Shown here: piece by piece, positions 2,068-38,537 of the stretch
Numbering within the stretch: position 1 is the stretch's first letter
How the letters are laid out: each line of letters begins with the position of its first letter
Assembly: GCA_024654505.1 (NCBI GenBank)
Contig: JANLHN010000012.1
Span: 1-40,218 of the forward strand
Direction of reading: 5' to 3'
Length of the DNA stretch: 40,218 nt
Origin: Nanobdellota archaeon
Lineage (GTDB): Archaea; Nanobdellota; Nanobdellia; Pacearchaeales; GW2011-AR1
Program-made: the position numbers and the translations under genes
Notes under the pieces: generated by a model
Database searches by the model: none
What the model was told of the DNA's origin: nothing
The model's input: only the letters and a program-made list of their open reading frames with translations

Positions 2068-2511
2068 ATGAAATCAAAATTTAACAAAAAGTGGAATTCA
2101 AGTAAACAACCTAGAAAGCAGGTGAAATTTAGAGCCATGGCTCCAACACATATTAAAAGAAAATTGATGGCTTCTATATTAGACAAACCTCTTAGAGTTA
2201 AATATGGGAAAAGAAACTTGGGAATCCGAAGAGGGGATGAGGTTAAGATTATGAGGGGCAAATTTAAAGGTAAACAAGGAAAGGTGGGAAAAGTAGATCC
2301 AAAAAATAATCGTCTTCAAGTTGAAGGGGTTCAGAGAGCTAAAAAAGGTGGAGAGAAAGTAGAAACCTGGTTTAGCCCATCAAAGGTGAAAATTATGTTA
2401 TTAAATACTGACGATTCAAAAAGGATGAAAAAACTGAAGGTCGTAGTTAATAGTCCTGCTGAAGTCCAAAAGACGGAAACTAAAGAACTAATGGAGAAAA
2501 AGAAAAAGTAA
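2068..2511 (+). CDS. rpl24: Ribosomal protein uL24
   Basis: KOW motif RRGDEVKIMRGKFKGKQGKVGKVD. Confidence 0.95.
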   Translation: MKSKFNKKWNSSKQPRKQVKFRAMAPTHIKRKLMASILDKPLRVKYGKRNLGIRRGDEVKIMRGKFKGKQGKVGKVDPKNNRLQVEGVQRAKKGGEKVETWFSPSKVKIMLLNTDDSKRMKKLKVVVNSPAEVQKTETKELMEKKKK

Positions 2512-2556
2512 TATGAGGACATGTTTCATGTTTTCATTATGCAATCAAAATAAAAA

Positions 2557-7865: not shown

Positions 7866-7966
7866 GAACATCAAGGACATTCTATATCTAAAAGTTTCTT
7901 AGGAAACTTTATAAAGCAACATCAAAGATGTTCCGTGCCTAAAGTTTCTTAGGAAACTTTATAAAC
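7866..7966 (+). repeat. Tandem duplication of a ~50-bp palindrome/TATA unit upstream of secY
   Basis: AAAGTTTCTTAGGAAACTTTATAAA occurs at 7891-7915 and exactly 50 bp later at 7941-7965; preceding sequence aacatcaaggacattc / aacatcaaagatgttcc is also duplicated. Confidence 0.9.
7957..7965 (+). promoter_or_regulatory. Archaeal TATA box for secY
   Basis: CTTTATAAA centred ~26 nt before ATG 7987. Confidence 0.65.
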
Positions 7967-7986: not shown

Positions 7987-9351
7987 ATGGCTTTAAGAGA
8001 CCTTTTCCATTATCTCCCTGAAGTTAGGGGACCAACTGAAAAGAAAGTTAGTTTTGGTGTTAAGTTTAAGTGGACCCTTATAATTGTCATTGCCTACTTT
8101 ATTTTATCTAATATTTCTCTTTTTGGTATGAGTGAGAGTTCTCTTTCTAGGTTTGAATATTTAGCTATCTTGCTTGGAACTTCCTTTGGTTCTTTAATTT
8201 CTTTAGGTATTGGTCCAATTGTTATGTCGTCTATTATTCTGCAGTTACTTCAAGGTGCGGGCATATTAAATATAGACACAAATACTCCTGAAGGGAAAAA
8301 GTTTTTTCAAGGAATGCAAAAACTACTTGCTTTTGCTTTTGTAATCTTTGAAGCGTTGGTTTATGTTTTAATGAAAGGTATACAAGCTGATCCAGGTTTT
8401 ACTGGGATTGTAATTTTTCAATTATGTCTTGGGGGTATATTAATTATATTTATGGATGATGTTATTCAGAAGTGGGGTTTTGGTAGTGGAGTTTCATTAT
8501 TCATTGCGGCAGGTATTGGTTGGAGATTATTTGCACAACTCTTCCAATTCATTGGCCCTCAAGGAGAATTAGAGGCTAGTGGAAAGATTTTGGCGTTAAT
8601 TGCCTCAGTCATATCGGGGGATGGAACTGGAGCTGTTAGAGCAATCGCACCAGTACTTGTTACTGCAGCCCTATTTTTGGTTGTTGTTTTTGCTCAGAGT
8701 CTAAAGGTTGAAATTCCCCTAGCATTTGATAGAATTCGGGGACATTCGGTTAAGTGGCCATTGCAGTTCTTTTATGCAGGAGTCTTGCCCGTAATCTTCG
8801 TTTCTGCCTTGGCTGCGAATATACAGCTATTTGGTTCATTATTACAAAATTGGATTGGAAGTGCAACCTTCTTGGGAGGGTTTTCTGGAGGGCAACCAGT
8901 TTCGGGTCTCGCTTATTGGATTAATTCAACACCTGTCTTAGAAACAATTGTAACTGGGAGTTTTAGGTGGGTTTATGCAGTTCAAGCCTTCTTTCATATT
9001 TTATTCTATACATTCTTTTCGATTATCTTCGCATGGTTCTGGGTTAGTACATCTCAAATGGACGCAAGAAGCCAAGCAAATAAAATTGTCCATTCTGGCA
9101 TGAGTATGCCAGGTTTTAGAAAGGATGAGCGAGTTCTTGAATCTATACTAAAGCGATATGTTGGACCTCTAACTATTATGGGTGGTGCTGCAATAGGATT
9201 GTTAGCCTCCATTGCAGATTTATTTGGTGCTTTGGTTGGTGGAACGGCTATCCTTCTAGCCATTATGATTATTTATCAATTGTATCAGAATATTGCACAA
9301 CAACATGCCGTCGATATGAACCCGGCATTAAAAGGATTCTTTGGGGCCTAA
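7987..9351 (+). CDS. secY: Protein translocase subunit SecY/Sec61alpha
   Basis: Multi-TM protein after uL15; LGTSFGSLISLGIGPIVMSSIILQLL; FAWFWVSTSQMDARSQANKI. Confidence 0.96.
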   Translation: MALRDLFHYLPEVRGPTEKKVSFGVKFKWTLIIVIAYFILSNISLFGMSESSLSRFEYLAILLGTSFGSLISLGIGPIVMSSIILQLLQGAGILNIDTNTPEGKKFFQGMQKLLAFAFVIFEALVYVLMKGIQADPGFTGIVIFQLCLGGILIIFMDDVIQKWGFGSGVSLFIAAGIGWRLFAQLFQFIGPQGELEASGKILALIASVISGDGTGAVRAIAPVLVTAALFLVVVFAQSLKVEIPLAFDRIRGHSVKWPLQFFYAGVLPVIFVSALAANIQLFGSLLQNWIGSATFLGGFSGGQPVSGLAYWINSTPVLETIVTGSFRWVYAVQAFFHILFYTFFSIIFAWFWVSTSQMDARSQANKIVHSGMSMPGFRKDERVLESILKRYVGPLTIMGGAAIGLLASIADLFGALVGGTAILLAIMIIYQLYQNIAQQHAVDMNPALKGFFGA

Positions 9352-36828: not shown

Positions 36829-36839
36829 GGTTTTAAAGT
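36829..36839 (-). promoter_or_regulatory. TATA box for secF
   Basis: Plus-strand ggttttaaagt ~26 nt from start at 36808. Confidence 0.5.
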
Positions 36840-36860
36840 TTATGGGGTGGGAACAATAAA

Positions 36861-36869
36861 CTTTAAAAC
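36861..36869 (+). promoter_or_regulatory. TATA box aligned to the decoy 5' copy of tRNA-Gly
   Basis: CTTTAAAAC centred 28 nt before 36893 (decoy) and 85 nt before 36950 (intact tRNA). Confidence 0.5.
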
Positions 36870-36890
36870 TCTAAATTAGGTCACTATTCT

Positions 36891-36906
36891 ATGCGTGGGT
36901 AGTTTA
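36891..36906 (+). repeat. Partial copy of the tRNA-Gly 5' end
   Basis: ATGCGTGGGTAGTTTA identical to 36948-36963. Confidence 0.9.
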
Positions 36907-36949
36907 AAGTAGCAAACAAGTTGCTTCGAGAAAACTACTCATTCAAAAT

Positions 36950-37020
36950 GCGTGGGTAGTTTAGTGGTAGAATTTTTGGCTTCCAACCAAATGACCGGGG
37001 TTCGAGTCCCCGCCCGCGCA
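36950..37020 (+). tRNA. tRNA-Gly (TCC)
   Basis: Acceptor GCGTGGG/CCCGCGC, anticodon arm TTTGG-CTTCCAA-CCAAA, T arm CGGGG-TTCGAGT-CCCCG; no encoded CCA. Confidence 0.95.
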
Positions 37021-37085
37021 TATTTTTTTGAACGAGAACCTTGTGTGAGTGTTGCCTCGAAGAGGTAGGCAGTTAACTACCTCGA

Positions 37086-37096
37086 CGCCCGCGCAT
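37086..37096 (+). repeat. Partial copy of the tRNA-Gly 3' end
   Basis: CGCCCGCGCAT identical to 37011-37021. Confidence 0.75.
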
Positions 37097-37192: not shown

Positions 37193-37211
37193 TACGCCCG
37201 AGGCAGGACTT
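37190..37211 (-). repeat. 22-nt copy of the tRNA-Arg(CCT) 3' end and flank
   Basis: ggctacgcccgaggcaggactt identical to 37287-37308, offset 97. Confidence 0.92.
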
Positions 37212-37291
37212 AGAGTCGCATCGAAGATGCTCACTGATTGCTCGCAAGCTCGCAACCAAACCGCCGGTTCAAGTCATCTACTTCATGGCTA

Positions 37292-38020: not shown

Positions 38021-38099
38021 GGGTTCGAATGAGGGGAAGTAACTTTCTTTGAAAGTTTCACTTCCTCACTCGCTTTGCTCATGAGGGGAGGAGGATTCG
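38021..38099. repeat. Two partial copies of tRNA-Leu 3' end and flank
   Basis: gggttcgaatgagggga 38021-38037 = 38165-38181; atgaggggaggaggattcg 38081-38099 = 38173-38191. Confidence 0.9.
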
Positions 38100-38173
38100 G
38101 CTTCGTGTCAAAGACACTCGCTGACATCGGTCTCGCTTCGCTCACTGCGTTGTCAAACCCTAAAGGGTTCGAA

Positions 38174-38446: not shown

Positions 38447-38462
38447 GGTCAAACGTTTGACC
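38447..38462. repeat. Perfect 16-bp palindrome made of the Leu D-arm sequence
   Basis: GGTCAAACGTTTGACC; each half equals the tRNA-Leu D-loop segment GGTCAAAC or its complement. Confidence 0.9.
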
Positions 38463-38523
38463 GAGCAGTTAGCTTTGAGAAAGCTAAACGCTTACATCCT
38501 TTCGAAATGCTGGCTGTGAGCAG

Positions 38524-38537
38524 CTCCGGCATCTCCT
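38524..38537 (-). repeat. Partial copy of the tRNA-Leu(CAA) 5' end
   Basis: ctccggcatctcct identical to 38425-38438. Confidence 0.85.

Follow-up and report, generated by a model that had tools for sequence, protein, structure and literature searches.

We found that the copies of tRNA gene ends flanking a tRNA-Gly(TCC) gene in a Pacearchaeota-like archaeon are probably duplicated arms belonging to small mobile hairpins, non-coding elements that insert at the ends of genes. Such hairpins appear to represent a type of miniature mobile element that has not been described. A shared hairpin core, copies of the target sequence, empty sites in relatives, and tandem and nested copies together point to insertion of small elements. 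In the part of the freely accessible journal literature that we covered, there is no description of such elements.

The window (the whole stretch of DNA analyzed, 40,218 nt) belongs to a metagenome-assembled genome (MAG; G000) of 620 kb in 13 contigs that is 82% complete, and all genomes compared with it are also MAGs. Proteins encoded in the window match those of Pacearchaeota and other Nanoarchaeota MAGs, which assigns the window to this group, and its gene neighborhood, with a tRNA cluster, a 5S rRNA, and minus-strand secD and secF, gives the same placement. The tRNA-Gly(TCC) gene is intact (69.6 bits; Table 1). A 16-nt exact direct repeat (ATGCGTGGGTAGTTTA) lies at 36891-36906 and 36948-36963, with a spacing of 57 nt, and a copy of the gene's 3' end (CGCCCGCGCAT) at 37086-37096 extends to a 15-nt match at 93%, 75 nt from 37011-37025. 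An earlier note on this DNA had described both copies, and both are present. The same note had placed the TATA box nearer to the 5' copy than to the gene; the box starts about 32 nt before the copy, and directly upstream of the intact gene there is no TATA box comparable to CTTTAAAAC. The T-run that it had placed at 37022-37028 does follow the gene, but at 37023-37029. Absent from its description is an inverted copy of the 5' end (F'), which follows the direct copy (F1), pairs with it, and could also pair with the gene's own 5' end. The module at 36893-36950 matches a covariance model of the upstream module (R1) with 65.7 bits. A 14-nt perfect inverted repeat (GTTTTAAAGTTTAT / ATAAACTTTAAAAC; 36830-36869) forms mirror-image TATA boxes for secF on the minus strand and tRNA-Gly on the plus strand.

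Table 1. Features of the window, with positions counted from its first nucleotide. R1 and R3 are covariance models of the upstream module and of its core alone.
Feature	Position	Strand	Basis or remark
Weak core match before the ribosomal protein S4e start codon (2557)	2504-2532	+	19.7 bits, E 0.37; Pfam PF00900
secY upstream-type module, no tRNA nearby	7900-7963	+	R1/R3 matches, repeat anatomy
TATA box CTTTAAAAC	36861-36869	+	tRNA-Gly transcription unit; starts ~32 nt before the 5' copy
F1, direct copy of tRNA-Gly 5' end (AT + nt 1-14)	36891-36906	+	Repeat comparison
Conserved hairpin core TAAAGTAGCAAACAAGTTGCTTCGAGAA	36905-36932	+	R3 33.9 bits, E 1e-4; alignment A4
F', inverted copy of tRNA-Gly 5' end AAACTACTCAT	36932-36942	+	Sequence, fold, covariation
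Spacer s, F' to intact tRNA-Gly	36943-36949	+	Sequence
tRNA-Gly(TCC), intact	36950-37020	+	tRNA gene scan
tRNA-Gly(TCC) downstream module	37021-37096	+	Same type at tRNA-Gly(GCC) and (CCC)
tRNA-Arg(CCT) downstream module: inverted T-arm, hairpin, 3'-end copy (37194-37211)	37194-37290	-	
tRNA-Leu(AAG) downstream module, 19-nt copy of 3' end	38081-38172	-	
tRNA-Leu(CAA) 5'-end copy (38524-38537, -) and D-type hairpin body (38462-38520, +)	38462-38537	.	

Such copies recur throughout the genome, which the earlier note had likewise missed, and the tRNA-Gly locus is one of dozens of module sites in this genome and in sister species. In stretches spanning the entire 620 kb we located 42 tRNA genes, about 18 of which have a direct copy of their 5' end (usually nt 1-14) 45-140 nt upstream, and about 24 of which have a copy of their last 10-22 nt, sometimes in tandem, 45-180 nt downstream. 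A stricter count, requiring a match of at least 11 nt (5') or at least 10 nt (3') within the gene's own 300-nt flank, gives 17/42 genes with 5' copies and 25/42 with 3' copies, one of the 25 (Leu(CAA)) stemming from a neighboring Leu gene. When flanks were exchanged between tRNAs, the means were 0.1 (5') and 0.08 (3'), ruling out chance or a tandem remnant as the origin of the copies. Residual tandem duplication had been one of the earlier note's suggestions, and in its plain version it leaves the shared core unexplained. Several contigs and independent MAGs show the same pattern, which also disposes of the concern that a single locus had been misassembled.

The upstream module consists of F1 (tRNA nt 1-14), a hairpin core of about 26 nt (AAAGUAAC..GUUUCAUGA), F' (the inverse of F1), a spacer, and the intact gene. 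Twelve modules of this genome align readily, with a core of the form TAAAGTAACnnn..nnnGTTTCRWGAA and an A-rich spacer before the gene. Among them, 13 of 18 base pairs have changed on both sides, and their covariation score is 0.555, versus 0.200 in shuffled controls and at most 0.145 in slid controls. R1 recovers the 12 sites and has matches in 12 of the 16 genomes of the genus, with E-values that, as for all of our home-made covariance models, are rough. No match to the full model occurs among 55 other genomes of the family, drawn as one genome per genus with G035 alone representing the window's genus. Comparison with related genomes, as the earlier note had proposed, shows covariation in the module helices over 13 species of the genus: 26 distinct congener modules score 0.476 versus 0.167 when shuffled, on an alignment that was fitted to the model and is biased towards it. 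Of the 24 congener loci matched by R1, 23 have a tRNA gene immediately downstream (for Gln, Arg, Asp, Ser, Val, Glu, Gly, or Ala), to which their arms are matched. Modules also occur in tandem, with four copies at tRNA-Gln(CTG) of G060 and two each at Gly(GCC), Thr(CGT), and Lys(CTT).

The two arms differ in fidelity. F1 is an exact copy of the native gene end (F) in 23/32 tRNA modules, including positions that F' mispairs. In the same 32 modules, whose arms were aligned by hand, positions 6-8 and 10-13 pair well, positions 3-5 are often mispaired, and the base opposite A9 is mispaired in 23, usually being A. F' in tRNA modules is thus not a plain reverse complement, so that part of it is inherited or selected rather than copied anew. 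In the Gln modules of G075 and G077 both arms have drifted, which is what decaying insertions should look like. By similarity, core sequences cluster with neither genome (permutation p ~0.36) nor tRNA (p ~0.34).

Comparisons with known RNAs and elements were negative. Eight module loci gave no match to a non-coding RNA family in Rfam 15 beyond tRNA and rRNA and one sub-threshold match over a tRNA, inspection by eye revealed no box motifs of H/ACA or C/D guide RNAs, and the exact core pattern, as a test of a virus-borne element, is absent from viral contigs. Loss of RNase P, for which N. equitans is a precedent, was rejected as the reason for the modules: RNaseP_arch is present in 8/10 congeners, and the explanation is also unneeded. 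The window's genome gave no RNaseP_arch match, which at its level of completeness does not establish a loss.

The modules displace promoters. Of 16 module-bearing tRNA genes, 15 have a TATA-like box about 31 nt ahead of the first 5' copy and only 2 have one before the gene itself, versus 22/26 module-free genes. Three relatives (L072, L073, and L102 (G035)) have the same promoter directly before tRNA-Gly(TCC), with no module and no copy, as anticipated by the suggestion that something had inserted between promoter and gene. The loci in the window and in congener G073 carry 54-57 extra nt, exactly one module. Given the module-free promoter of the relatives, the window's tRNA-Gly is a filled site, at a locus where species differ in whether a module is present or absent. 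At secY, at least eight congeners have the bare promoter and start codon only, and these too are empty sites. In a separate observation, tRNA-Gly(TCC) of relatives (L072 1537-1626, L073 4467-4555, and L191 1403-1495) contains a short anticodon-loop intron that the window's gene lacks, and a single-locus ARAGORN scan miscalls two of these three genes as Phe and Trp.

The core also occurs away from tRNA genes. The core-only model R3 finds 25 sites in this genome at E<0.003, of which 15 are not at tRNA genes (about 9 of these belonged to its training set), and the same sequence at unrelated loci of one genome, like the empty sites at tRNA-Gly(TCC) and the secY promoter, is a mark of small mobile elements. 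Three sites outside the training set (L047:10525, L062:11714, and L058:11011) have direct repeats of 10-24 nt and inverted copies, and a congener match (L209) and several weak matches in this genome show the F1-core-F'-s-F anatomy with no tRNA nearby. Two common features of mobile elements are missing: the direct repeats, 10-24 nt long and limited by the gene end, are not target-site duplications of fixed length, and the outer inverted repeat derives from the target instead of being the element's own terminal repeat for recognition by a transposase. In the secY module, F1 (TAGGAAACTTTATA) spans 7900-7913, the core 7912-7939, F' 7940-7948, and native F 7950-7963; this F holds the TATA box of secY, whose ATG lies at 7987. 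It belongs to a class (aIF2-gamma, nitroreductase, secY, FKBP, and others) in which F contains a TATA box and 33-51 nt, mostly 47-51 nt, separate the end of the core from the start codon. In a second class (Cu-ATPase, NrdD, and AlaRS), F spans the start codon, and at start-codon sites in congeners (L234, L218, L237, L233, and L231) the spacer often contains a Shine-Dalgarno-like sequence and F' covers the start codon. In tRNA-Thr(GGT) of two congeners, the core lies within an insert that resembles an intron and interrupts the anticodon region, and a similar sequence is present in a third (L238, L240, and L222, from G063, G073, and G035, around locus position 1501); the corresponding gene of the window's genome has no insert. 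Across the order, 16/185 genomes have core matches at E<=1e-4, comprising 11 in the genus and 5 with single matches elsewhere in the family. Three of these single matches were inspected: the core is clear in L281 and could not be located by pattern in L279 and L280. Congeners G061, G062, and G076 have no core match at E<=0.01, and matches in G035 and G064 are few or weak.

The downstream copies belong to a second, independent set of hairpin modules, built around the T-arm and also dispersed. These have several types of hairpin body, the commonest of which (D-type; model R2) combines tandem G-A mismatches with covarying stems. R2 finds 16 sites in the window's genome, 9 in G035, 21 in G006, 47 in G037, and 4 in G031, these being 5/56 genomes of the family. 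At tRNAs the gene is followed by a short spacer, an inverted T-arm, the sense strand of the T-stem, a body replacing the T-loop, and the sense 3' end, an arrangement seen most clearly at tRNA-Thr(TGT) of G035 and tRNA-Ile(GAT) of the window's genome. Many D-type bodies lie away from tRNAs, at start codons, ribosome-binding sites, and other places, and one is nested inside another body at tRNA-Gln(CTG). Downstream of the window's tRNA-Gly, the body is not R2 but a type common to the three tRNA-Gly genes, with an inverted T-arm remnant at 37030-37040 and a GAGGTAG/CTACCTC hairpin at 37062-37083 ahead of the direct copy. Nearby, the 3'-end copy of the tRNA-Arg(CCT) module abuts tRNA-Arg(GCG), and at tRNA-Leu(CAA) a D-type body (42.9 bits, E 1e-7) lies between copy and gene in the opposite orientation.

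Several loci encountered in this survey merit separate mention. At about 1430-1620 of L152 (G035), the D-arm/anticodon region of a second tRNA-Ser sequence is split by a D-type body; this sequence is possibly a pseudogene or has an unusual intron. In L266 (G037:C5:152617-153079), a start codon is closely followed by a D-type body, which may be translated in frame, a possibility known from Rickettsia palindromic elements. L128 (G031:C33 27444-30498) has two tandem D-type bodies beside an apparent 3' part of secF, near tRNA-Gly(TCC). L117 (G035:C6:132255-132329) is a bacterial-looking tRNA-SeC(TCA), perhaps on a contaminating segment of the G035 MAG.

We propose that insertion would turn a target F, the 10-21 nt ending at the insertion point, into F1-core-F'-s-F and leave the target itself untouched. 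In tRNA genes, F would run from nt 1 to about nt 14, in the D-arm, so that the entire gene would survive downstream and its promoter would drive transcription from the 5' copy. TATA boxes and start codons would serve as further targets of the upstream type, and the downstream type would reflect the same kind of insertion around the T-arm with other hairpin bodies. The inverted arm is best accounted for if, at insertion, the new arm were copied by fold-back (template switching) before synthesis resumed upstream of F. Because F' could trap the real 5' end, mismatches that weaken this pairing may be favored and kept in tRNAs; for part of the mismatch pattern, descent from an ancestral module is an alternative explanation. 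A more specific version, which we offer tentatively and would not expect to hold in full, is that this Pacearchaeota-like genus harbors a new class of mobile element that matches its own arms to each target, with direct and inverted copies of a tRNA end, TATA box, or start codon, that possibly moves through an RNA or fold-back intermediate, and that is partly exapted as a bistable leader switch of tRNA and translation genes.

The main rival, which we consider unlikely, is that the module is a cis-acting switch RNA: the core would be a receptor for a ligand or protein, F1:F' its closing stem, and the alternative pairing of F' with native F (a tRNA 5' end or a start codon) would toggle tRNA maturation or translation on and off. 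F' is indeed complementary to both F1 and F, and the congener start-codon sites, with a Shine-Dalgarno-like spacer and F' over the start codon, fit such a switch. The structure covaries, core nucleotides are conserved genus-wide, and compensatory changes also fit selection for RNA function; several targets besides tRNAs are translation genes (aIF2-gamma, S4e, S2, and AlaRS). However, judged by the start site that the native promoter implies, transcripts at TATA-box sites, secY among them, would begin downstream of the core and so not contain it. Moreover, the exactness of F1 in tRNA modules goes beyond what pairing demands, the targets are mixed (Cu-ATPase, nitroreductase, and NrdD), presence is patchy, and four tandem copies would be odd for a switch.

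Polymerase template switching at quasi-palindromic gene ends, case by case and with no mobile element, is improbable. It would account for the F1-F'-F geometry, the product of a double template switch, and for F'-s-F forming hairpins with short loops such as TTAG, TTCG, and TTGC, but it cannot explain why unrelated loci in 13 species have one and the same ~26-nt core, or why five genomes have D-type bodies in common.

The reading put forward in the earlier note, a "tRNA within a tRNA" whose outer acceptor-like stem, formed between the 5' and 3' copies, would frame or process the tRNA, is very improbable. The naive minimum-energy fold of the full 204 nt (36893-37096) does join the copies, but F1 covaries with the F' of its own module. 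Both upstream and downstream copies occur in 10/42 tRNA genes, with 10.7 expected (Fisher p=0.75), and tRNAs of congener G035 have downstream modules without upstream ones; an outer stem is therefore not what maintains the copies. In addition, tRNA-Gly(GCC) has two upstream modules but one downstream, and a T-run follows tRNA-Gly(TCC). The copies are thus neither peculiar to tRNA-Gly nor a paired device. Ordinary att-site duplication by a tyrosine integrase, leaving an integrative element or its remnant in tRNA genes, is just as hard to credit: the downstream copies do restore a tRNA 3' end in the manner of att sites, but the inserts are only 45-150 nt, carry no genes and hence no integrase, also target 5' ends, TATA boxes, and start codons, and include inverted copies.

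If insertion of mobile hairpins is the right explanation, such hairpins have invaded the tRNA genes in this archaeon's minimal genome, at the 5' end in nearly half and at the 3' end in more than half of them. This would be selfish DNA living in the most essential genes without killing them, with each gene left whole, and the insertion itself would make RNA stems matched to the target. Covariation could then arise by copying rather than by selection, which is a warning for its interpretation. The family, with its core model, empty sites, and two target classes, would be testable for how tiny elements move, and would offer a model for tRNA maturation near decoy ends and for whether insertions become regulators.

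Small palindromic or hairpin mobile elements include Rickettsia palindromic elements, MITEs, mitochondrial GC clusters, and double-hairpin elements. In general character, the modules resemble these elements in being short, non-coding, hairpin-forming, dispersed, and patchy between relatives, and in lying within or beside RNA and protein genes, sometimes nested. They differ in that their outer arms match each target, as direct plus inverted copies of 10-21 nt, in a core of only about 26 nt, and in using tRNA ends, TATA boxes, and start codons as targets. Yeast mitochondria provide an example of small hairpin mobile elements (PMC4478555). With riboswitch-type leaders the modules share a conserved hairpin core, an F1:F' closing stem, and an F' complementary to a downstream expression sequence; unlike them, they have an F1 exact beyond the need for pairing, lie upstream of promoters and tRNAs as well, and have no single regulon and no Rfam match. 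As at att sites in tRNA genes, the downstream 3'-end copy leaves the gene intact, but there are no element genes, the inserts are tiny, 5' ends are used too, and copies are inverted. Nanoarchaeum equitans, of the same broad archaeal group, has split tRNAs and dicistronic tRNA-C/D sRNA precursors, and so likewise has small RNAs beside tRNA genes (PMC3491384). In contrast to that system, the modules described here have no Rfam sRNA match and are not tRNA halves, the lineage has RNase P RNA, and the tRNA remains intact.
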